Both the position numbers and the translations under genes were made by a program. The notes beneath the pieces are model-generated. The model was given only the letters and a program-made list of their open reading frames with translations, was not told the DNA's origin and ran no database searches. Positions 2,538 to 21,473 of a stretch of DNA of 24,277 nt are shown piece by piece. The DNA is taken from positions 13,801 through 38,077 of IMG/VR virus record IMGVR_UViG_3300029309_000009; one strand, 5' to 3'. This stretch comes from a virus. Within the stretch, counting starts at the first letter, position 1. Each line of letters starts with the position of its first letter.

Positions 2538-3278
2538 TCAACTCACATGAGGCGCACGTATTAATTTTCTATCTTCTCCAATCAAAAGTAGGGGGAAATC
2601 ATCTTTTGCATAAAAATTAATTTTACCTTTGAAAAATTTATGCAGTGGCCCCGACCATTCTACTGTTGCTTCTTCTCCTATTTTATTAGAGACAGACATG
2701 ACTTCCTCATATTTGTTAGAATTTGAAGTTCTACTACTAATAATAATTTCATCTCCACAATCTAAACGATAAACTCCGCTTTTTATTAATTCACAAAGAC
2801 CCATTGTATTTTTGAAAACATTTGAATCTAATGTAAAACAAGATTCAAATTTAGAACTTCCAAACATAAACAGAGTTTGTGGTTCTTCTTCATATTCTAT
2901 ATGTTTTAACATTCCTCTAATCCTAGTAATAGCATTCATATTAGAATGAGAAACTATTCTAGGTAAGACTACCTTTTGATTTTCACAGGAAACTGTTAGA
3001 ACATCCTCTCCTAAAAATGTGGCTTCGCCATTAAATTTCTTTAGGAAAGAAGTTAAAGTTTTGGCATCTAAAATAAACTCTCCACTTTCTGAACCCTCAA
3101 CGGGTATAGAAATAGTCAAGGAAAGAGCAGAATCAGCATTCCATAATTCTAACGTATTATTAACCAATATCAAATATACGCAATCATCTAAACTTCCGTT
3201 AGAGATGCCATATTTGCCCTTACCTTGAATATCTTCAAGAGCCTTCTCCATAATTTTACTATCAACATTAAACTTCAT
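2538..3278 (-). CDS. pcn: PCNA-like sliding clamp
   Basis: At 246 residues this has the length of archaeal/eukaryotic PCNA, the ring that tethers polymerase, ligase and other partners to DNA. Supporting features are an N terminus of the clamp type (MKFNVDSKIMEKALEDI), alternating beta-strand and helix pattern in two similar halves, and a C terminus of the form KINFYAKDDFPLLLIGE...LIRAPHV, matching the PCNA ending with its YPL and (I/A)PR-type strand. Sequence similarity is otherwise weak, as is common for viral clamps. It sits directly between the RecA-like ATPase and the polymerase, with an ATGA overlap at its start. The RFC genes in the same window and the PIP box on RFC-L support the assignment. 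Confidence 0.78.
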   Translation of the reverse strand: MKFNVDSKIMEKALEDIQGKGKYGISNGSLDDCVYLILVNNTLELWNADSALSLTISIPVEGSESGEFILDAKTLTSFLKKFNGEATFLGEDVLTVSCENQKVVLPRIVSHSNMNAITRIRGMLKHIEYEEEPQTLFMFGSSKFESCFTLDSNVFKNTMGLCELIKSGVYRLDCGDEIIISSRTSNSNKYEEVMSVSNKIGEEATVEWSGPLHKFFKGKINFYAKDDFPLLLIGEDRKLIRAPHVS

Positions 3279-8629: not shown

Positions 8630-10174
8630 TCAAAATCCTGCCATAGTTTGAATAACATCTGAAACAGTATTAATATCTACAACATATTTATCTTCTCTAA
8701 TTCTTACTACTCTTGGAAACCTCAAACCTAAGTTTCCTTTCTTATCTCTAGAAATCAAGTCTGCACTCACTTGCAAAACTATTTTAGGAACAAAATAATA
8801 TGTTCCCGATTTTACATCTTCTATCGTTGTTCTCAAACGATTTGTTAAAGATAGCATCTCTCTTTCAGAAAGACCTGTTCCAACAGAACCAATTCCTAAG
8901 AACCCATTTTCATCTTTTACGGCTATGTCAAAAGATGCAAAAAATCCCGACCTAGCCCCTTCTCCATATCTAGCAGAAGTAATTACAACATCTAAATCTA
9001 TTCTAGGAGGTTTATACTTAGCCCACCCTACACTTCTTTTTCCTGCTTCGTAAGGCAAACTATCGTCTTTGATAATGATGCCCTCAAATCCGTCATTGAT
9101 TGCTCTATTGTAAAATGCTAGAACATCTCCTCCTTTTTCCATTCTATGTGCTTGGTCGGGTAAGTCTTTCATTTTTACTAACCTTTCAGAATAAGGTAGG
9201 TTGATTAATGTTTCAAGTTCATATTTGAGACAATCAAATATTACCCATTTAACTTTGACCTTTTCTATTGCTTCTTCGTGGTTTTTAGAGTGAACTCTAG
9301 TTCCCATTAGTTTGTGTTCAGCAGGAGAACCATCTTCCTTTATTGGATATATCTCCCCATCTAGAATACATCTAAGAATAGGATATTGTTGCACTTTCTC
9401 TACCACATCTTGAAACTGAGGAGTGACTATATTCCCTTTGCGATTAAAGATAATTACATTGACTCCTTCTTTGTGAATCTGATACCTGTTACCATCATAC
9501 TTGTAATCCACTATTTTATTCTTAGGCCATTTATTCATAGGTAATTCTTTTGCAAGCATTGGCTTGACGAATTTTCCATGACTAAGATTAGTCGGTGGAT
9601 TTTCATTCATTTCATAATAAGTTATTAAAGTAGAAATATCATTAAAATTATTGTCGCTTTTGACTTCCTTTAATTTCTTATCATAAATCTTGGCTATCAT
9701 TTTTTGAACAGTTCCTACATTAATTCCATTTCTAGGAACCCTTAACCAATATCTGCAAAACCATTTTCTTTCTAAGGAAGACATATCTTTGAATAATTCT
9801 GAAAAGATAATATATTCTTCAGAAGAAATACCGCCACAATCCAAACTTAAAACATTTAAAAATCTGTTAAGTGGTATTTCCATTTCACTTTCTTTACTAT
9901 AATCTAAAGCCTCAGAAACATCTCCAATATCTTCAAGCGCATCATAGAAAGCATCTATCTCACTTTCAAAAATATTAAGACATTTGGCTATCCACTTTTT
10001 TGCTTTGGATATGCCTATATTATTAGAAGGATATTCCATCGCCAATATCTGAAACAATATTTTTTTATCGTTGGATTTGAACTTAGATATTTCATCGCTG
10101 ATTAACTTTATTTGATTAGTAGGCTTCTTATGTTCTAGAGCCTGTAATAATCTTGCCATCATCTTCATCGTCAT
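8630..10174 (-). CDS. lig: ATP-dependent DNA ligase
   Basis: A full-length 514-residue ligase that seals nicks using ATP, joining Okazaki fragments at the fork. An N-terminal helical DNA-binding domain covers about residues 1-195. The adenylation domain has motif I KYDGNR with the AMP-accepting lysine K225, motif III LDGEIY (271-276), motif IV FEGIIIK (about 364-370) and motif V WAKYKP (about 384). The C-terminal OB-fold follows, with the final motif RFPRVVRIREDK. Length and domain order match archaeal LigI-type enzymes (about 550). The start lies inside the upstream gene; ATGs at 10174, 10168, 10162 and 10159 are all possible, with GAAGGGAAG before the first. Confidence 0.96.
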   Translation of the reverse strand: MTMKMMARLLQALEHKKPTNQIKLISDEISKFKSNDKKILFQILAMEYPSNNIGISKAKKWIAKCLNIFESEIDAFYDALEDIGDVSEALDYSKESEMEIPLNRFLNVLSLDCGGISSEEYIIFSELFKDMSSLERKWFCRYWLRVPRNGINVGTVQKMIAKIYDKKLKEVKSDNNFNDISTLITYYEMNENPPTNLSHGKFVKPMLAKELPMNKWPKNKIVDYKYDGNRYQIHKEGVNVIIFNRKGNIVTPQFQDVVEKVQQYPILRCILDGEIYPIKEDGSPAEHKLMGTRVHSKNHEEAIEKVKVKWVIFDCLKYELETLINLPYSERLVKMKDLPDQAHRMEKGGDVLAFYNRAINDGFEGIIIKDDSLPYEAGKRSVGWAKYKPPRIDLDVVITSARYGEGARSGFFASFDIAVKDENGFLGIGSVGTGLSEREMLSLTNRLRTTIEDVKSGTYYFVPKIVLQVSADLISRDKKGNLGLRFPRVVRIREDKYVVDINTVSDVIQTMAGF

Positions 10175-11982: not shown

Positions 11983-13491
11983 TCATTCCTCCAATAATAC
12001 TGCAACATCTGTTGTCAAGAATAATATTGCAATAGACATGGCAACAGTAAAACTGCTAATAGTAACTTTAGCAGGGTCAATAACTCCTGCGTTTGATAAA
12101 CATTCCATTTCTCTAGTTAGAGCATTGAAACCAAAAGTGTTGGGATAACCAAGTTGTATTGAATATAAGTCAAAGCCATTTGAAAGATATTTGATAGGTT
12201 GTAGCAACGAATCTGTTACAATACTTTCCAACTTAGAATCAATACTTCCCTCTAAAGGAACAGTAGCATTAGCAAGACCTAATCCTCCACCAACTATTAT
12301 TCCTCCCTCCAAAGCGGCTTTTGTTGCGTTAATCGCATCATCTAACCTTTCTTTAGTTTCTCTCATTTCTATACTAGAACCTGCCCCTACTGTAATTACT
12401 GCAACTCCTCCTTTGAGTCTACTCATTCTTTTTTGTAGTCTAAGTTTATCGTGGTTTGATTTTGATTCGTCATATCTTAATTTTAAAGAAGATACTCTAT
12501 CATCTACGTTTTCCTTTCCTCCAATCAAAACAGTAGAAGCCGAACTAATAGTAGCCTTTTCACAAGAGCCAAAATCTTCAAAGGACACAGTAGTAATATC
12601 ATCATTGTTTTCATCGCTGAATACTTTACCGCCCATTAGTGCAGAAATATCTCCTAACTCATCTAATTGTGCATCTCCAAAATTAGGAGCCTTTACAATA
12701 CAAGCCTGTATTCTTCCATCTACAATATTCATTACTGTGTTGTTAAGCGCAGAACCCTGTATTGCTTTTGCAAAGATTAGAATTGGTCTTCCTTTTGAAG
12801 AAGCAATTTCCAAAGCAGGAAGAATATCTGCAAAATTAATCAAGTGTTTATTAGTTGCTAGAATTAGAGGATTCTTCAATTCACAAATACCGGATGGGTC
12901 ATTTGCCATCAGATGACTAAAGTAACCTTCATCTATTTCTAATCCATCCGTAATTTCATAAGTAGTTTCTAATTGATTTCCTTCATTGACTGTAATAATT
13001 CCATCACGGCCAACAATATCAATAACTTCTGAAATTAGTTCTCCCATTGTTTTGTCATTGTTAGATGCAATAGTAGCGACATGTAGAATATTTTCATCTG
13101 TTACTTCTTTAGTTTGTTGGGCAATTCCATGTAGGACAATATCTCTAATCTTTTCTAAATTAGATTTAACTGTATGAATATCATCAATCTCATATTTAGA
13201 GAGACCATTACATAATGCTGCTGCGATTAAACAAGCAGTAGTAGTTCCATCTCCTGCATTTGATTGCGCTTTAGAAGCAATATTCTGAACTAACTTTATT
13301 CCCATACTAACATAAGGGTCGGGATGAGAAATATACTTTGCAATAGTTACACCATCATTGATAATAATTGGAGGATTACCTTGTAGAATTACATTACGTG
13401 CTTGTGGGCCTAATGTCGGTCTTACTGTATCTGCCACAAGATTAATTCCTTGTAGTAGTTTTTCTTTAACTTCTTCTCCAAATAAAATCAT
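11983..13491 (-). CDS. groEL: Group I chaperonin (GroEL/Cpn60)
   Basis: A 502-residue ATP-driven folding chamber subunit. It is group I (bacterial type), not a thermosome. It has VADTVRPTLGPQARNVIL and DGVTIAKYI with D46, then the phosphate loop GDGTTT at 81-86. The apical segments EGYFSHLMANDP and VKAPNFGD match GroEL GYLSPYF and VKAPGFGD. KLRLQKRMSRLKGGVAVITVGA follows, then RLDDAINATKAALEGG carrying the catalytic aspartate (near 384), then GFNALT and GVIDPAKVT. The protein ends right after FLTTDVAVLLEE, so the flexible GGM-rich tail is missing and the protein is about 40 residues short. A GroES-like gene lies two genes upstream in the same coupled run. It probably folds virion proteins. 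Confidence 0.94.
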   Translation of the reverse strand: MILFGEEVKEKLLQGINLVADTVRPTLGPQARNVILQGNPPIIINDGVTIAKYISHPDPYVSMGIKLVQNIASKAQSNAGDGTTTACLIAAALCNGLSKYEIDDIHTVKSNLEKIRDIVLHGIAQQTKEVTDENILHVATIASNNDKTMGELISEVIDIVGRDGIITVNEGNQLETTYEITDGLEIDEGYFSHLMANDPSGICELKNPLILATNKHLINFADILPALEIASSKGRPILIFAKAIQGSALNNTVMNIVDGRIQACIVKAPNFGDAQLDELGDISALMGGKVFSDENNDDITTVSFEDFGSCEKATISSASTVLIGGKENVDDRVSSLKLRYDESKSNHDKLRLQKRMSRLKGGVAVITVGAGSSIEMRETKERLDDAINATKAALEGGIIVGGGLGLANATVPLEGSIDSKLESIVTDSLLQPIKYLSNGFDLYSIQLGYPNTFGFNALTREMECLSNAGVIDPAKVTISSFTVAMSIAILFLTTDVAVLLEE

Positions 13492-13999: not shown

Positions 14000-14265
14000 T
14001 TCTTCTTCACCTTAAATTTATTATCTCTTGCAATTTGGCAACATACTCTAATCTTGCTTGTAGAGTGTAAATTCCAAAAATCTCCTTCTTTCCAACCAAA
14101 CTTTGCTTCAACATATTTACAAAGTTCTTTTCGATTCATATTATCAAATTCCTCATCTATCTGAATACCAAGAATAGGGCCACCTTCATTCTTTAGGAAT
14201 GAATCTAAGAATACATAGATTCTACCCATAAGAGCAATTGTTATTTTAAGCATCCACTGAATCAT
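13996..14265 (-). CDS. Hypothetical protein between the JAMM and GroES-like genes
   Basis: 89 residues. The first 25 are hydrophobic (MIQWMLKITIALMGRIYVFL) and may be a membrane or signal segment. The remainder is soluble (EFDNMNRKELCKYVEAKFGW...) and ends KFKVKKK. GGTGA precedes the start, which overlaps the JAMM stop (ATGA). A downstream start at MNRKELCKY would remove the hydrophobic part. It has no visible E2-like or ubiquitin-like feature. No family recognised. Confidence 0.5.
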   Translation of the reverse strand: MIQWMLKITIALMGRIYVFLDSFLKNEGGPILGIQIDEEFDNMNRKELCKYVEAKFGWKEGDFWNLHSTSKIRVCCQIARDNKFKVKKK

Positions 14266-14708
14266 ATCATTTCACCTATCATTAGTTGTCTTTCTTCATT
14301 TTCCCAAATCCAATTCCTACCTCTTAGAGTATTGAACCAAAGTCCTCTTTCTTCTTTACCTAAAACAATTGCTTTTTTCATTAGGGGTCTCCAAGTGTCA
14401 ATAGTTTTCCAATCTATTCCACTCCAATATGCTTGACCAAAGGGATGAGTGTGAATCCAGCACTTAATAGGTAACTTCATTCCAACGGGATTTATTGTAA
14501 AATCTACATAGCCCGAAGTTCCCTTACTAATATGTAGTCTGTCATTTGAATCTATTACTACTTGAACTTCAAGATTAGGAAGATACTCAGTAGAGGCTTT
14601 CCATATTTCGTCTAAAAATTCATCAGTAACTTTAGGATTTAATTCCCAAGTAGAAACTATTCCAACTTTATAATCTGCATCGTTTTCATTTTCCATCATT
14701 TCGGTCAT
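14262..14708 (-). CDS. JAMM/MPN-family metallopeptidase
   Basis: 148 residues with a complete JAMM zinc motif: WIHTHPFGQAYWSGID, that is H86-x-H88-P-x-G...S96-x-x-D99. A glutamate in the preceding strand (E47 in NLEVQVV) is the candidate catalytic acid. Enzymes of this family cut isopeptide or C-terminal bonds of ubiquitin-like proteins, or release a cysteine from a Ubl carrier. The gene is joined by an ATGA overlap to the E1-like gene directly upstream, the usual pairing in prokaryotic Ubl systems and in PRTRC clusters. A Ubl with Gly-Gly end lies 3.5 kb upstream on the same strand. In tailed phages JAMM proteins can also act in tail assembly, usually fused to NlpC/P60; no such fusion is present. 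Confidence 0.85.
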   Translation of the reverse strand: MTEMMENENDADYKVGIVSTWELNPKVTDEFLDEIWKASTEYLPNLEVQVVIDSNDRLHISKGTSGYVDFTINPVGMKLPIKCWIHTHPFGQAYWSGIDWKTIDTWRPLMKKAIVLGKEERGLWFNTLRGRNWIWENEERQLMIGEMI

Positions 14709-15259
14709 ACATTTACCACCTTAAAAAGCCCAACATCTTCATGATTAAACCATCTTTGAATCCATTCTGCTGCCATTCCTGCTATTGCTACTTGCATAAA
14801 ATGAACGCCTTTATTTGAACCATCCCAAGAATCTCCTTGACAAGAAAAACTTCCATCGGGGCCAGCAAGCATGGTCTCCCATTGTTCCGGATTAGAATCG
14901 GAACTAATAAACGCTGCATTACGGCCCTGCGCTCTCAAATCTAACCAAGAAACCTTTTCAGTTCTATACAGAGTTCTTCTAAGACTTAGATTATCTACAC
15001 AAGATACAACTAAATCATATCCTTTGATTTGTTTTGAAGTTCTTATAGCGTAAGGGATGTTCTTTACAGAATACCTTACTGCCATTACTGTTGATTTATT
15101 TACTCCAATATCTTCATCTTCATAATTCTGATAGGGAATATTTTTCTTCTCTACAATATCGGGGTCTGCTACTGTAATATCATACAATCCTGTTTTATAC
15201 AGTAGAGGGATAAGGAAACTTCCTATTCCACCTGCTCCAATAACTAATATTTTTCTCAT
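14705..15259 (-). CDS. E1/ThiF-like adenylating enzyme
   Basis: 184 residues with the ThiF/MoeB/E1 Rossmann fold. The nucleotide loop is GAGGIGS (8-14). DPDIVEKKNIPYQ (32-44) corresponds to the DxDxVExSNLxRQ motif, with the usual Arg before Gln replaced by Tyr. K55 sits in the IGVNKS loop. SCVDN (86-90) carries the catalytic aspartate, and C140 (SFSCQG) is a candidate conjugating cysteine. The protein is shorter than MoeB or ThiF (about 250) and has no CxxC zinc site. It would activate the C-terminal glycine of a Ubl with ATP. The spacing from C140 to the helix AIAGMAAEWIQRW resembles ThiF proteins of PRTRC systems. Overlaps the JAMM gene by ATGA. Confidence 0.82.
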   Translation of the reverse strand: MRKILVIGAGGIGSFLIPLLYKTGLYDITVADPDIVEKKNIPYQNYEDEDIGVNKSTVMAVRYSVKNIPYAIRTSKQIKGYDLVVSCVDNLSLRRTLYRTEKVSWLDLRAQGRNAAFISSDSNPEQWETMLAGPDGSFSCQGDSWDGSNKGVHFMQVAIAGMAAEWIQRWFNHEDVGLFKVVNV

Positions 15260-15438
15260 TCATACCACTTCCTTTTTGATTTAAATTCTACTCCACAATT
15301 TTCCATAATTCGCTTTACACTGTAAATTATTTCTTCCTTCGCTTTTTGGGTAGGCACATAACCTGTGCAACTACCTTCAAAATTCAATATATATTCAACT
15401 AAATAATTAGTCATATTTACATAATCTTTCTTTAGCAA
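15256..15438 (-). CDS. 60-residue hypothetical protein with TTG start
   Basis: A mostly helical protein (TNYLVEYILNFEGSCTGYVP, then TQKAKEEIIYSVKRIMEN). GGAG lies 8 bases before TTG 15438, which supports this start over ATG 15414. It overlaps the E1-like start by ATGA, so it is translated with the E1/JAMM pair. Two cysteines are present. Could be a substrate or adaptor of that system, but this is position only. Confidence 0.55.
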   Translation of the reverse strand: MLKKDYVNMTNYLVEYILNFEGSCTGYVPTQKAKEEIIYSVKRIMENCGVEFKSKRKWYE

Positions 15439-15439
15439 C

Positions 15440-15637
15440 TTAATCTCTCCTAATTATTTCTTTAACTAACAACTCTTGATAGTTATCCATCCAACTACCT
15501 AGAACTTTACGGGCTTCTCTTGGATTCAGACCATATTGTTTCTGCAAATAAGGAGAAGCACCAAACATATTGGTTTTTCCGCTTTGTCGTAATTCTTCTA
15601 AATATACATAGTATTCAATCCATTCTTCATTTATCAT
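15440..15637 (-). CDS. 65-residue helical hypothetical protein
   Basis: MINEEWIEYYVYLEELRQSG followed by ASPYLQKQYGLNPREARKVL: the second part reads like a helix-turn-helix with a Y-L-x-x-x-Y-G-L-x-x-x-E-A helix pair common in small phage proteins. It overlaps the end of the upstream coiled-coil gene. Function unknown. Confidence 0.55.
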   Translation of the reverse strand: MINEEWIEYYVYLEELRQSGKTNMFGASPYLQKQYGLNPREARKVLGSWMDNYQELLVKEIIRRD

Positions 15638-16067
15638 TTTTATTCCTCTTTTTTATTTCTTCTATCTGTCTAGCATGTTTACGTGTTGTTATAGTCAAGT
15701 CTTCTTTGCTGTCTTCTAACTTGATAATTCTATTGTTAAGTTTAACAACCTGTAATTTCATTTCGGGCGCAATATTTTCAATCTCTTTTCTAATTGCATC
15801 TTTAATCTCGTTCTTAGTTTTTAACGAAACATACATATTGTTTAATCTACGCTCAAGCATTTCGACTTTATCTGTTACGTTTTTGAGTGAAACTTCTGTA
15901 TTCTGCAACAATCTAATAATTTCTCCTTTAGACATTTCTTCATAAGGTTGGGAAACCATAGCGTTACGATTTCTTCTTCTACAAGTTTGACAAATAGTTT
16001 CTCTTGATTTCAATGAAACTTTCATAAACCGACTTCCGCACCTTTTACAATCAACTGTATAACTCAT
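15627..16067 (-). CDS. Zinc-ribbon coiled-coil protein
   Basis: 146 residues. An N-terminal Cys4 ribbon (CKRCGSRF...TICQTCRRR, two CxxC pairs about 19 apart) is followed by a long charged coiled coil (about residues 45-146: GEIIRLLQNTEVSLKNV, KVEMLERRLNNM, KLNNRIIKLEDS). GGTGAT precedes the ATG. Such a layout suits a dimeric nucleic-acid- or protein-binding scaffold. It follows TFB closely, and a role in transcription is possible but unproven. Confidence 0.65.
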   Translation of the reverse strand: MSYTVDCKRCGSRFMKVSLKSRETICQTCRRRNRNAMVSQPYEEMSKGEIIRLLQNTEVSLKNVTDKVEMLERRLNNMYVSLKTKNEIKDAIRKEIENIAPEMKLQVVKLNNRIIKLEDSKEDLTITTRKHARQIEEIKKRNKNDK

Positions 16068-16077
16068 TTTATCACCA

Positions 16078-16212
16078 TCATATTTTTTGATAGGTTATCA
16101 TTCCTATCTTTCTATTATTTACTACTAAATAGATAATATCATTTTTAATTATTATTTCTGTTACATCATCTACATATTTACTAAGCCATTCTAATATTTC
16201 TTTATTTTTCAT
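16078..16212 (-). CDS. 44-residue hypothetical protein
   Basis: MKNKEILEWLSKYVDDVTEI to ...MITYQKI, filling the gap between TFB and the zinc-ribbon coiled-coil gene. The ATG lies inside the end of TFB. A helix followed by a three-strand pattern (IIIKNDIIYLVVNNRKIGMI) is likely. The stop overlaps the Shine-Dalgarno region of the next gene. No family recognised. Confidence 0.5.
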   Translation of the reverse strand: MKNKEILEWLSKYVDDVTEIIIKNDIIYLVVNNRKIGMITYQKI

Positions 16213-17047
16213 TTTCATTCCTCACAAAATCACTTATTGCTCTACCACGAACTTCTTTCAAACTATTGAATCCTAATAGTTTCAGTATTTTTTGCGCTTG
16301 CTCTCTAATAGAACAAACTGCAAATCCCACACTTTTTGCCAAATCTTTCTGTTTTATCTGCATCATATTAGCAGTAGATACAATCAAACAAATTGCTGCA
16401 CAATATGTTCTGCCTTTAGTAAAGTAATTTCTTTCAAGAACAGGGTTTATTGTAACATGTAATTCTTGACACGAAGTAATAAACTCCGCACTATCTTCTA
16501 TATCTCTAGAAGTCTTATCTAATAGTGATACTAGATTATCTCTAGCATAAACTGAAGAATTTCCAAAATGCTTTGCAATCAACCTTGTTAATTTGTTCAC
16601 CTTACGCATATCGCAATCAAACTCTTTTCTAACTTCACTCATCCTTATGGCTATCCCATTTTCTTTCAGCACATAATAAACTAAAGCAGTGGCCCTATTT
16701 TCATAACTATATTTATTGCTAAATACATGTCCTCTAAAACAAGAGATGTAGCATTCTTCTACTCTATCTCTCAAAGGATGATTTATCGCTATTGAAGATA
16801 ATACTAAATTACAAAATACTAATCCTGTTTGAATATTTATTTCAGAAGAAATGTATTTATTTTTATTAGTCGTTCCTAAAGTATTTCTAAAAGTCGCTTC
16901 ATGTATTATTTCACCGGATGGACTATACTGAGAAACACTTTGCTCAAATATATCTGTTACTTCCACAAGGCCGCAGTTATCGCAAATTCTTTCTCCCATT
17001 CTTTCATCAAAACTAAACTTATCTAATCCACATTCTTTGCACGACAT
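16202..17047 (-). CDS. tfb: Archaeal transcription initiation factor B (TFB)
   Basis: 281 residues, close to cellular TFB (about 300). The N-terminal zinc ribbon has C3, C6, C22 and C25 (CKEC...CDNCGLV). It is followed by the B-reader/linker region (SGEIIHEATFRNTLGTTNK) that enters the polymerase active-site cleft. Two cyclin-like repeats then recognise the TATA-TBP complex and BRE. The second repeat has the DNA-contacting helix QKDLAKSVGFAVCSIREQAQ. TFB recruits host RNA polymerase to promoters, so a viral copy could redirect transcription to viral promoters. The ribbon and cyclin pattern make the call firm; preferred promoter elements cannot be read. It overlaps the 430-residue unknown gene. 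Confidence 0.93.
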   Translation of the reverse strand: MSCKECGLDKFSFDERMGERICDNCGLVEVTDIFEQSVSQYSPSGEIIHEATFRNTLGTTNKNKYISSEINIQTGLVFCNLVLSSIAINHPLRDRVEECYISCFRGHVFSNKYSYENRATALVYYVLKENGIAIRMSEVRKEFDCDMRKVNKLTRLIAKHFGNSSVYARDNLVSLLDKTSRDIEDSAEFITSCQELHVTINPVLERNYFTKGRTYCAAICLIVSTANMMQIKQKDLAKSVGFAVCSIREQAQKILKLLGFNSLKEVRGRAISDFVRNENEK

Positions 17048-18315
17048 ATCAATTCACCTATATTGTTATTTAATAAATATTCAAAATCTAATCTATGGTT
17101 TGACATATCTTCTTCATACAAATATGCGTTAATAGTGCTAATTAATTTAGTAGCAACACGGTCATTCAAAAAGGCATATCCTCTAGCAACCATTTGGTCT
17201 CCAATAGATTGCGCTCCTCCCATCGCTAAATTATCAACACAAATTGGCCCTAGCCACATTGGAACTTTCTTTGTTTCAAAGGTGTCTATCCAATCTCCAT
17301 CCTCGTTTTTTATTTGGCCTGTCTTTTCTTTTATATGCTGAATATTATACACATAGGTATTCACAGATTGTCTGCTTTCTCTATTGCTAACTTTTTGTAT
17401 CTTCCAATCATACAATTGACCTCTAACAAATAGCCACTCATTATTAGTTTTATCTATTTTCATTAATTTATATCCATCAATTTTTATTTTTTTATGACTG
17501 GCATCTTCCTCTACGTGTTCTACATGATAGAAGAATTTAGTCGGCATTAATTCGCAAGTTTCAAGAATTAACTCTTTGGCTCTTTTTTCTACAATATCTT
17601 TTGTTCTATTTTGAGATAGAAAAGCAATCATTATTTTTAGTTCTGATTCTGAAGGGTCTTTACCTACTAGATTTTTGTATAGTAGAGCGGGAGACATTCT
17701 ATACCACTTTCCTCTTTTATTGTTATTCCTAAACGAATTGACAAAGGTAACTAACTCTGACTCGCTTATCTCTCCCCATACAGAATCAGATAATTCTATT
17801 GCATATTTACCTCTCCCTATCTTTTCTACATTTAGTCTAACATCTTGTCTTTGATAGTCAGCGTAAAAGTAATATGGCACTCTATTTTCTAGAACATATA
17901 GTATAGGTTCCGGAACACTTACTGCTTTCAAATATACTTTCATCAAATTGTCATAGTCTCTTTGTTCTTCAAAGAAGCAAGCATATGTCACTCTTGCAAA
18001 AATATTACATGCTATTTTTAGCCCAAATTGCCTTCCATTCAAATAATATTTACCATCGTATTTTATATGAATAGGATAGGTATTATCTGCAAACCAATAA
18101 ATTCTTTCAAAATTCCATTGACCTCCACCTGCTCTAGATATTATGTTTCTCCAAGTTCGGCACAACCCTTCATGATAGGGGTCTCCCTTAGAAGACCAAT
18201 TAGGTTCTACATAGTCTCTTTGAGGAGAATGTATCCACTTGTCATCTCTCATATTTTGGATTTCATATCTCATTGCTAATCTGCTATCTTGCATTACCAT
18301 TTCTATTATTCCCAT
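17023..18315 (-). CDS. 430-residue unknown protein upstream of TFB
   Basis: I do not recognise this protein. It is rich in aromatic residues (KWIHSPQRDY, YPIHIKYDGKYY, VPYYFYADYQ). It contains a helical segment WYRMSPALLYKNLVGKDPSE followed by ELKIMIAFLSQNRTKDIVEK, and a strand-rich C-terminal third (WLFVRGQLYDWKI, PMWLGPICVDNLAMG). There are no Walker, nuclease or zinc motifs and no membrane segment. GTGATTAA precedes ATG 18315; ATG 18294 is an alternative. It overlaps TFB by 25 bases, so the two are probably made together. Confidence 0.75.
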   Translation of the reverse strand: MGIIEMVMQDSRLAMRYEIQNMRDDKWIHSPQRDYVEPNWSSKGDPYHEGLCRTWRNIISRAGGGQWNFERIYWFADNTYPIHIKYDGKYYLNGRQFGLKIACNIFARVTYACFFEEQRDYDNLMKVYLKAVSVPEPILYVLENRVPYYFYADYQRQDVRLNVEKIGRGKYAIELSDSVWGEISESELVTFVNSFRNNNKRGKWYRMSPALLYKNLVGKDPSESELKIMIAFLSQNRTKDIVEKRAKELILETCELMPTKFFYHVEHVEEDASHKKIKIDGYKLMKIDKTNNEWLFVRGQLYDWKIQKVSNRESRQSVNTYVYNIQHIKEKTGQIKNEDGDWIDTFETKKVPMWLGPICVDNLAMGGAQSIGDQMVARGYAFLNDRVATKLISTINAYLYEEDMSNHRLDFEYLLNNNIGELICRAKNVD

Positions 18316-18319
18316 TTAA

Positions 18320-18487
18320 TCACATCACATATGTATTGTTTTTTAATTGCTTATCGCAATCATCATGTATTTCGTTTTTCATTTCTTGAGGTAAGATAAG
18401 TTGCCCTCCACAAATCCTACATTTAGTCGCTATTCTTTTTTTATAAGACCAAATGCTTTTTTCGTATTCGGGGTCTTTTTCTTTCAT
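18320..18487 (-). CDS. 55-residue zinc-finger protein
   Basis: MKEKDPEYEKSIWSYKKR then KCRICGGQLIL, with a later H41 and C44 (IHDDC): a CxxC...HxxC arrangement able to bind zinc. The ATG overlaps the stop of the upstream gene (ATGA) and its stop lies 5 bases before the next start. One of the family of small Cys-rich proteins in this window. Function unknown. Confidence 0.6.
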   Translation of the reverse strand: MKEKDPEYEKSIWSYKKRIATKCRICGGQLILPQEMKNEIHDDCDKQLKNNTYVM

Positions 18488-18753
18488 TGTAACTCACCAT
18501 GATATTCTAAAGCGGCTTTTCTGTTTGGTAGTTCGGTCTTTAACCAAACCATGAATCCTTTTTCTACCGCTTCGGGAATACTCCAAAGACATTTTCTAAA
18601 TGCTTGGCACATAACCCATTGTTTTTCTTTATCTGATTTGCCCTCTAGATTATCAAATACCATTTGTAATTTAGTTCTATCTAAAGGACTTAAATCTCCA
18701 AAAAAGGATTCTATTACTATTCTACATTCTTCGGCATTATCAAACCATTTCAT
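18484..18753 (-). CDS. 89-residue helical hypothetical protein
   Basis: MKWFDNAEECRIVIESFFGD..., helix-rich throughout, with segment DRTKLQMVFDNLEGKSDKEK and a C-terminal helix. GGAGAG lies 6 bases before the ATG. It is the first gene after the hairpin that follows the ubiquitin-like gene. No family recognised. Confidence 0.6.
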   Translation of the reverse strand: MKWFDNAEECRIVIESFFGDLSPLDRTKLQMVFDNLEGKSDKEKQWVMCQAFRKCLWSIPEAVEKGFMVWLKTELPNRKAALEYHGELQ

Positions 18754-18772
18754 GTAAAACTCTCCAAGAAAC

Positions 18773-18802
18773 GGGAGGAGAGTTACCCCTATCTCTCCTC
18801 CC
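18773..18802 (-). terminator. Perfect 10-bp GC-rich hairpin after the ubiquitin-like gene
   Basis: GGGAGGAGAG and CTCTCCTCCC form a perfect 10-bp stem with a 10-base loop, starting 14 bases after the stop at 18817. The strand after it is GTTTCTTGG, only mildly T-rich. The arm also contains GGAGG, so it could hide or mimic a ribosome-binding site. Likely terminator, attenuator or mRNA-end protector. Confidence 0.55.
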
Positions 18803-18816
18803 TAATTAGTTGTAAT

Positions 18817-19017
18817 TCAACCACCGACAATAGCCGGAGTTAAAACAACTGAATCAACATCATCCCAATTGACGTTTGAAAGGTTCTCTCTTGAGACCAT
18901 TTCTCCGTCAATAAATACCCAATCAGTAGGATGGGTATTTATCTGTTCTATTACTTCACTAGCCTCAAGGGTTAGTGAAGTGTGTCCTGTTTCATTCAAA
19001 ATTGTCAAACTTATCAT
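18817..19017 (-). CDS. Ubiquitin-like / ThiS-MoaD-type beta-grasp protein ending in Gly-Gly
   Basis: 66 residues, the usual size for ThiS. The order fits a beta-grasp: strand ISLTILNET, strand TSLTLEAS, helix EVIEQINTH, then WVFIDGEMVSRENLSN (the ThiS LAINxxIVPRExW element), the hairpin WDDVDSVVLTPAIVGG, and the stop immediately after G65-G66. The free C-terminal Gly-Gly is what an E1-like enzyme adenylates. AGAGGTGA precedes ATG 19017. An E1/ThiF-like gene and a JAMM gene lie 3.5 kb downstream on the same strand, so a complete minimal set is present. The product could be a protein tag or a sulfur carrier. It could also be a ThiS for thiamine, but no thi genes are present. Confidence 0.75.
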   Translation of the reverse strand: MISLTILNETGHTSLTLEASEVIEQINTHPTDWVFIDGEMVSRENLSNVNWDDVDSVVLTPAIVGG

Positions 19018-20746: not shown

Positions 20747-20847
20747 TTTTTCATCTCCATTATTTTCATCCATTCTTTTTTACATTCTTCACAAATATGT
20801 TTCAAACTTACAAATGTGTTTTTGTTTTTACAAATCATACATCTCAA
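20743..20847 (-). CDS. 34-residue zinc-ribbon microprotein with TTG start
   Basis: LRCMICKNKNTFVSLKHICE then ECKKEW: CxxC and CxxC separated by 12 residues, a minimal zinc ribbon. TTG 20847 overlaps the previous stop (TTGA) with GGAG 8 bases upstream, and its own stop overlaps the next ATG (ATGA). The same architecture as the 29-residue protein at 11180-11269. Confidence 0.6.
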   Translation of the reverse strand: MRCMICKNKNTFVSLKHICEECKKEWMKIMEMKK

Positions 20848-21473
20848 CTTAACATCTCCAAGTTTAATCCATAGACTTTGTTTAGTTCTTTTCTAACTTC
20901 ATTTTTTCTTTCTATTATTTTCTTAACCGGCCACCAATTTGGCATTCTATCTTTTTTCCATTCTGCAAATTTCCATTTCCCCTCAACGTAATAGTGCCGA
21001 TAAGATTCTATTACGAAATCCCAACAATGTTTTCCATGAGAGTTGGGTATCCTATACTTATCAAACATAGCAATACTTACAGGAGTCAATTCACTTTCGT
21101 CATAGTCAAAAGTAAAACTGTCTAGTATTCTTTTTTCCGTTCCGTGAATTTTACCATATCTGTAAGTATATTCCTTACAAAGTGCAAGAGCATGATTGTA
21201 TAGCCACATATAGTTCGCTTTGTTCTGTCTAGCCCAAATAGTGCTAGGATGATTAAGCATAGCAGGTTTCATCATATAGGAATAATGTGATTCCTTGTGA
21301 AACTTCTTCAACTCTTTTAGAGAAGGCTCTCTGCCGTGACAATTCCAAAACAAAAAGTAAAGAGAATTGGTATGTAACATCTGACAACTTTCCGTTGGCA
21401 TTTTTACTACATGCTTGTCTAACATCTGTTTTGCTGATTCCACAGGACATTCTGATAATGCAAATATGTTCAT
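20844..21473 (-). CDS. Conserved phage protein of the type labelled pyrimidine-dimer DNA glycosylase
   Basis: 209 residues. The start MNIFALSECPVESAKQMLDK followed by HVVKMPTESCQML matches a protein found widely in marine phages and some archaea (typically MNIFVLDxDPxxxAxxxxDKHVVKMxxExxQxL). It also has HPSTIWARQNKANYMWLYNH and LCKEYTYRYGK. Databases often label this family as a pyrimidine-dimer glycosylase, a UV-damage repair activity, but the label is weakly founded and the sequence does not resemble T4 endonuclease V. Conserved DKHVVK and HPSTIWAR patches could be active-site residues. Family membership is fairly sure; function is not. Confidence 0.6.
   Translation of the reverse strand: MNIFALSECPVESAKQMLDKHVVKMPTESCQMLHTNSLYFLFWNCHGREPSLKELKKFHKESHYSYMMKPAMLNHPSTIWARQNKANYMWLYNHALALCKEYTYRYGKIHGTEKRILDSFTFDYDESELTPVSIAMFDKYRIPNSHGKHCWDFVIESYRHYYVEGKWKFAEWKKDRMPNWWPVKKIIERKNEVRKELNKVYGLNLEMLS

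Follow-up and report, generated by a model that had tools for sequence, protein, structure and literature searches.

The 24,277-nucleotide stretch of DNA analysed here (the window; positions 13801-38077 of the 85,884-base virus record IMGVR_UViG_3300029309_000009) encodes a ubiquitin-like protein (Ubl), an E1-like activating enzyme and a JAMM peptidase. These three proteins probably make up a minimal Ubl cycle that dispenses with an E2, occurs both in Poseidoniales and in their tailed viruses, and resembles the archaeal SAMP/UbaA/JAMM system. A viral Ubl system had been proposed for this region in a first-pass annotation, and that proposal is now supported by structure prediction, by invariant catalytic residues, by the co-occurrence of the genes in viruses, and by host homologues and gene fusions. 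The three open reading frames (ORFs) lie on the minus strand exactly where they had been placed, at 18817-19017 (Ubl, 66 residues), 14705-15259 (E1, 184 residues) and 14262-14708 (JAMM, 148 residues), with the last two genes overlapping by 4 nt (ATGA). All of the motifs then named are present as well, namely GAGGIGS, DxD, SCVDN and Cys140 in the E1, HxHPxG...SxxD in the JAMM protein, and the C-terminal Gly-Gly in the Ubl.

Relatives of the Ubl and of the E1 were gathered from IMG/VR, with some contigs counted twice, and the loci are not all independent. In all 171 viral loci with the complete trio, the genes lie on a single strand in the order Ubl-TFB-E1-JAMM, the second of these genes encoding a TFB-like transcription factor. 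The collection comprises 91 distinct Ubl/E1/JAMM triples and 106 distinct E1s. The Ubl and E1 genes are separated by ~3.6 kb in the window, with other genes between them, and by a median of 3.5 kb over the viral loci. Both Ubl and JAMM genes are present in 55 of 55 E1 loci that have 8 kb or more of upstream and 3.5 kb or more of downstream sequence, as well as in 10 of 10 records of at least 80 kb picked independently by their polymerase, bearing out the expectation that the three genes would co-occur in related genomes. Two shorter polymerase-picked fragments (73.8 and 49.9 kb) contain neither Ubl nor JAMM. The cysteine of the SCQ motif is found in 203/203 viral E1 ORFs and the full JAMM motif in 195 of 200 viral JAMM ORFs, the other five ending before the motif or being cut; in one record (G159) the JAMM gene is split over two frames. 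The three-gene association is far beyond chance, because order and strand are the same in every complete locus, the distinct triples are numerous, and all of the adequately flanked loci are complete.

The Ubl ends with ...AIVGG directly before the stop codon, its two terminal glycines being encoded at 18820-18825. The AlphaFold2 model (predicted local distance difference test score, pLDDT, of 86) shows the succession strand-strand-helix-strand-strand-helix-strand of a β-grasp fold, in agreement with the first-pass annotation. Structural alignment with VIA-align gives Z scores of 5.1 for MoaD (3rpf), 4.5 for ThiS (1zud), 4.5 for TtuB (5gha) and 4.2-4.5 for ubiquitins, and a Foldseek search of the PDB returns weak E-values (best 0.098), with Ubls forming many of the matches listed. 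Protein L, which is unrelated but has a similar fold, scores similarly upon structural realignment, and therefore these matches show the fold and not the family. No Pfam match is reached by the viral Ubl, and just one of 23 viral members reaches an E-value of 0.033 with the ThiS family model (PF02597). NETGHT, W33, D37 and VGG are invariant across 23 viral relatives. Every viral Ubl terminates in VGG followed by zero to two residues, as anticipated by the claim that the Gly-Gly end is conserved; it is bare in 42 of 178, including the one in the window, and would become exposed through putative trimming in the others. The one or two residues that follow Gly-Gly in most other viral Ubls go beyond the first-pass annotation, as do the host homologues, poly-Ubl genes and fusions described below. 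Taken as a model, the protein is predicted to be a β-grasp modifier of the ThiS/MoaD/ubiquitin-like type.

The E1 matches the Pfam ThiF family (PF00899) with an E-value of 8e-17 and 61.6 bits, against a curated cut-off of 28.1. Its AlphaFold2 model (pLDDT 88, predicted template modelling score, pTM, of 0.88) aligns with UBA3, SUMO E1, ThiF and MoeB with Z of ~20. In an alignment with canonical ThiF/MoeB-type sequences, residues D32 and D34 of the DxD motif, as well as Q44, K55, D89 and R94, are kept throughout the family, and Cys140 (codon 14840-14842), which is invariant, aligns with the catalytic cysteine. The enzyme thus combines the GxGGxG and DxD motifs, the N, Q, K and D residues of the ATP site and the catalytic cysteine position of E1/ThiF proteins. 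Other features set this family apart from canonical ThiF, MoeB and UbaA. Its members begin ~40 residues later, without the N-terminal arginine-finger segment; the arginine of the canonical NLxRQ motif is replaced by Tyr or His; and no CxxC pair of a zinc knuckle is present in the viral and Poseidoniales E1s. In turn, the D-L-R triplet at positions 107-109 is invariant and specific to the family. Scores are below all NCBIfam cut-offs, including the UbaA equivalog (35.6 vs 450 bits) and TIGR03736 (42 vs 144.75 bits). The best PDB sequence match of the E1 profile is MccB, and the PADLOC match reflects generic E1 homology and nothing further.

Among phages, the E1 search found distant ThiF proteins at most, and the closest of these by fold include a PRTRC_ThiF; none of the small genes near ThiF in Acinetobacter phage ME3, Xanthomonas phage PhiXhv-15 and crAss-like phages encodes a Gly-Gly protein. 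Sequence searches of 50,697 phage records with the Ubl and with the JAMM protein gave no match. Two E1 homologues with YQ, DLR and SCQ motifs are found in a Methanosarcinales metagenome-assembled genome (MAG) and in Methanoperedens (L216, 5998-6582; L219, 5905-6489); in these two the Asn of NLxRQ is Gln and one CxxC pair is present, and there is no JAMM motif nearby.

In the JAMM protein of the window, the motif HTHPFGQAYWSGID (HxH...S..D, 14412-14453) is preceded upstream by Glu47 (14568-14570). The complete active-site set of JAMM/MPN+ metallopeptidases, consisting of E47, H86, H88, S96 and D99, is invariant in 18 viral and host sequences. Similarity to described families is low: the viral protein reaches no Pfam model, with no viral match to Prok-JAB (PF14464) and host copies scoring 13.5-16.5 bits against its cut-off of 25, and a weak profile match (E 0.0011) points to AMSH-like proteases.

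A genome search with the viral E1 revealed E1-JAMM or Ubl-E1-JAMM sets in MAGs of Poseidoniaceae and Thalassarchaeum, as well as in related contigs. One of these sets is located on a 2.06 Mb contig, and the sets are flanked by chromosomal genes such as those for enolase, ribonucleotide reductase and a tyw1-like protein, named by eye from sequence. Among 146 genomes assigned to the order Poseidoniales from named loci inside them (L224, L247, L218), the family E1, counted at E < 1e-33, is present in 69, the Ubl in 69 and the JAMM gene in 71; all three genes are found together in 62 of the genomes and none of them in 70. Pairwise co-occurrence gives Fisher p values of 5e-29, 6e-34 and 6e-27, calculated with shared ancestry ignored. 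Nearly all genomes of the order also encode a second, UbaA/MoeB-like E1 of ~400 aa that matches the family E1 weakly. When 243 genomes of the phylum were searched for the Ubl, the 28 matching genomes had all been drawn from the order before, with none among those newly drawn.

The host Ubl is often a tandem poly-Ubl of two to four copies; each of the 39 internal junctions examined has GG, and the final GG is usually followed by one to four residues. A separate case is a di-Ubl gene (L297, 1234-1698, in genome G007) that has AG instead of GG at both repeat ends; its product is possibly non-cleavable or inactive, though the same genome has E1 and JAMM genes. Fusions join the components directly, as (Ubl)2-E1 in three genomes (G135, G104, G036) and as E1-JAMM, with the JAMM domain C-terminal, in G069, G076 and others. 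In most host loci the JAMM gene is followed by a small gene, H4, of ~80 aa, helical in appearance and with no Pfam match (e.g. L311, 6039-6281), which is a possible fourth component of the host system; a search for it in the viruses found none. A quick tree groups the viral E1s in a single clade (support 100) on a long branch beside the host clade (88), a topology that makes the split between the virus and host sequences look old. An origin of the viral E1 by recent capture from one of the sampled hosts is not supported by this arrangement.

Since the three genes co-occur and are fused in hosts, it is close to shown, as far as sequences can tell, that Ubl, E1 and JAMM function as a single unit. 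The poly-Ubl genes with their GG junctions resemble polyubiquitin precursors, a likeness that speaks for a protein modifier which is produced in large amounts and then processed by a peptidase; such precursors, as well as the Ubl-E1 fusions, need cleavage at GG, for which the JAMM protein is the obvious candidate. In the cycle that we envisage, JAMM would cut the Ubl at GG, taking off the extra residues of most viral Ubls and, in the host, separating the poly-Ubl repeats and the Ubl-E1 precursors. The E1, judging from its fold, its invariant residues and established E1 chemistry, would then adenylate the Ubl C terminus and hold it as a thioester on Cys140. By analogy with SAMP/UbaA, the Ubl would next be moved onto target-protein lysines with no dedicated E2 involved, and JAMM would presumably take the tag off again. 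The virus's own copy would most likely tag host or viral proteins during infection. Transcription initiation factors are candidate targets, given that the viral cluster invariably includes a TFB gene, between Ubl and E1. This TFB may be functionally tied to the Ubl set. Both E2-less tagging and a tagged transcription factor have been described in archaea, for SAMP2, UbaA and TBP2 of Haloferax (PMC4895103). As for the purpose of the viral copy, it may be the remodelling of host proteins, the modification of virion proteins, or opposition to a host tagging defence.

Several observations weigh against such a cycle. Without the arginine-finger segment and the NLxRQ arginine, the chemistry of the E1 could differ from that of ThiF, MoeB and UbaA. 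The Methanosarcinales homologues of the E1 have no Ubl detected genome-wide by the Ubl profile, the viral Ubls with a bare Gly-Gly, that of the window among them, need no trimming, and transfer free of an E2 is assumed by analogy. Sets of JAMM and Ubl are, moreover, known in sulfur transfer too. A sulfur-carrier function, in which the E1 would make a Ubl thiocarboxylate that donates sulfur to tRNA thiolation or to a cofactor, while JAMM trims the carrier or frees the product in the manner of CysO/Mec or of sulfur transfer for quinolobactin, would accord with MoaD, ThiS and TtuB being among the best structural neighbours of the Ubl, with the single-copy state of the viral Ubls, and with known sulfur operons that combine E1, JAMM and ThiS/MoaD-like proteins (PMC1779556). 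However, the Pfam hits over the virus, with the small ORFs of the window scanned in part, include no rhodanese, cysteine desulfurase, ThiG, MoaE, tRNA thiolase (TtuA/NcsA) or E2 domain, so that the linked sulfur-transfer or acceptor enzymes of a sulfur-carrier operon are missing among them. Poly-Ubls and Ubl-E1 fusions would also be unusual for a carrier that is catalytically recycled, and nearly all hosts have the separate UbaA/MoeB-like E1. Sulfur transfer, the main rival to tagging, is thus considered unlikely, and the sequence evidence leans towards protein conjugation because of the poly-Ubl genes and because no sulfur genes were found.

A different question is posed by the suggestion that the host set serves for antiviral tagging, with the viral copy competing with it or stripping its tags from virion proteins. 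This explanation concerns purpose and is compatible with tagging as the mechanism. Bacterial Ubl systems do tag phage proteins and Borg elements carry many JAMM deSAMPylases (both in PMC12660748), and the host set occurs in just about half of the genomes; yet the virus carries the whole cycle and not the peptidase alone, the host loci lie amid genes of a housekeeping type with no obvious defence island, and PADLOC detects generic E1 homology only. We regard this role, too, as rather improbable. Much less probable still is peptide modification of the MccB/PaaA type, whereby the E1 would adenylate a peptide on the way to a small-molecule product, with no relation to the Ubl: MccB is indeed the top PDB sequence match of the E1 profile, but the invariant cysteine at the catalytic position, the strict co-occurrence with the Ubl, and the Ubl-E1 fusions all speak against it. 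That three unrelated genes are neighbours by chance, an idea to which the distance between Ubl and E1 in the window might lend itself, is refuted by the constancy of the viral loci, the host co-occurrence and the fusions, and its probability is negligible.

Among the known systems close to the E2-less cycle is SAMP/UbaA/HvJAMM of Haloferax volcanii, which has a Gly-Gly β-grasp modifier, a single E1, a JAMM desampylase and no E2 or E3, and which counts the transcription factor TBP2 among its known targets (PMC4895103). The E1s of the present family are, however, short (184-220 aa) and lack the arginine-finger segment, the NLxRQ arginine and the zinc knuckle, the Poseidoniales add poly-Ubl, Ubl-E1 and E1-JAMM fusions and an extra UbaA/MoeB-like E1, and the set is also encoded by viruses. 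Iyer et al. 2006 (PMC1779556) described E1/JAB/Ubl operons of bacteria, among them polyUbl operons with JAB-E1 fusions, as well as Ubl/JAB pairs of phage tails. The polyUbl operons (their type 6e) share with our system tandem Ubls, here in the hosts, and a JAB/JAMM domain fused to or adjoining the E1; they also contain an E2/RWD-like and a metal-binding protein and have JAB N-terminal to E1, whereas the fusions found here carry JAMM at the C terminus, no E2-like domain turned up, and the carriers are archaea and viruses. PRTRC ThiF/JAB/Ubl cassettes of plasmids and phages likewise place E1, JAB and Ubl on mobile elements, but the viral E1 falls short of the TIGR03736 threshold, as noted above, and no E2 or ParB partner was found. 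The bacterial antiviral Ubl systems Bil and CBASS Cap2-Cap3 also tie E1 and JAMM to antiviral or viral biology, although these have E2 domains, while the viral set shows generic PADLOC similarity of the E1 alone. In the tail-assembly proteins of Lambda and T1 (TAPI/TAPK), a viral Ubl is accompanied by a JAB peptidase (JAB/NlpC) within the tail module and without an E1; the set described here has an E1 and resides in a replication gene cluster. Finally, Borgs are archaeal mobile elements with JAMM deSAMPylases thought to act on SAMP-like tags (PMC12660748), whereas here the tag and the E1 are carried as well, in single copy, by a tailed virus.

The RaFAH study of 2021 (PMC8276007) placed a MoeB/ThiF-family gene among the auxiliary genes met most often in predicted archaeal viruses and connected it with ubiquitination; the accessible part of that paper names no Ubl or JAMM partner for it. 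Ubiquitin, JAB and ThiF go unmentioned in the accessible magrovirus papers, and the reports found, which do not cover the key magrovirus literature, describe no complete viral set, no Poseidoniales poly-Ubl and no such fusions. Complete Ubl cycles were previously known from cells, and from phages and plasmids in parts. It is quite possible that magroviruses are the first viruses known to carry a complete and self-sufficient Ubl tagging cycle, kin to the E2-less poly-Ubl system of Poseidoniales, and that they use it to reprogram the cell, for example via transcription initiation factors. Retention of the set by essentially every recovered relative within a widespread group of ocean viruses suggests that tagging matters to infection. 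An archaeal poly-Ubl family with Ubl-E1 and E1-JAMM fusions, and with no E2 detected, would in addition offer a simple natural model of minimal ubiquitin-type signalling.

The virus itself is most likely a tailed archaeal virus, a magrovirus of Poseidoniales (Marine Group II), because its structural and replication genes fit, in a comparison by description, the magrovirus account of the International Committee on Taxonomy of Viruses (PMC10768690). That profile of Magrovirales lists Caudoviricetes structural genes together with PolB, clamp loader, ligase, TFB and chaperonin in genomes of ~90-110 kb. Pfam identifies in the window a family B DNA polymerase, a clamp loader, a ligase, a TFB and a chaperonin, and the rest of the record encodes a portal, a large terminase, an SU10-type major capsid protein, a prohead protease and a tail tube; the genes thus agree with the profile, and the record has a size of 85.9 kb. 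Within the phage collection, the polymerase comes closest to entries from tailed viruses of haloarchaea (~26% identity).

Two neighbouring genes accompany the set. The Cpn60 chaperonin (11983-13491, minus strand; Cpn60_TCP1, E 5e-36), located downstream of the JAMM gene, is its conserved neighbour in most viral loci and is not claimed here as a part of the Ubl cycle. The TFB-like factor (16202-17047, minus strand) matches the Pfam TFIIB zinc ribbon with E 3e-6, slightly under the cut-off. TFB-like genes also occur close to some host sets, in nine loci, and arrival of the viral TFB together with a host Ubl cluster was considered; it is not supported, the best host matches being general TFBs and not those of the clusters.

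Three magrovirus-like contigs with E1 and JAMM genes (L212, L213, L214) are binned in Maricaulis and Altibacter MAGs, a placement that is contamination of public MAGs. The 184,733-base record IMGVR_UViG_3300021958_000021 contains two copies of the Ubl locus (L019, L121) ~93 kb apart and resembles two magrovirus genomes joined end to end. Elsewhere on the minus strand of the window, a presumed sliding clamp (2538-3278) has a weak Pfam match to the N-terminal domain of the bacterial beta-clamp (E 0.0034) and does not match archaeal PCNA. The minus strand also encodes a full ATP-dependent DNA ligase (8630-10174), and a second protein with a DNA-ligase domain is found elsewhere in the same virus (L456-L459). 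A predicted pyrimidine-dimer DNA glycosylase (20844-21473, minus strand; Pyr_excise, E 1.7e-7) is a repair enzyme that suits a virus of the sunlit ocean.

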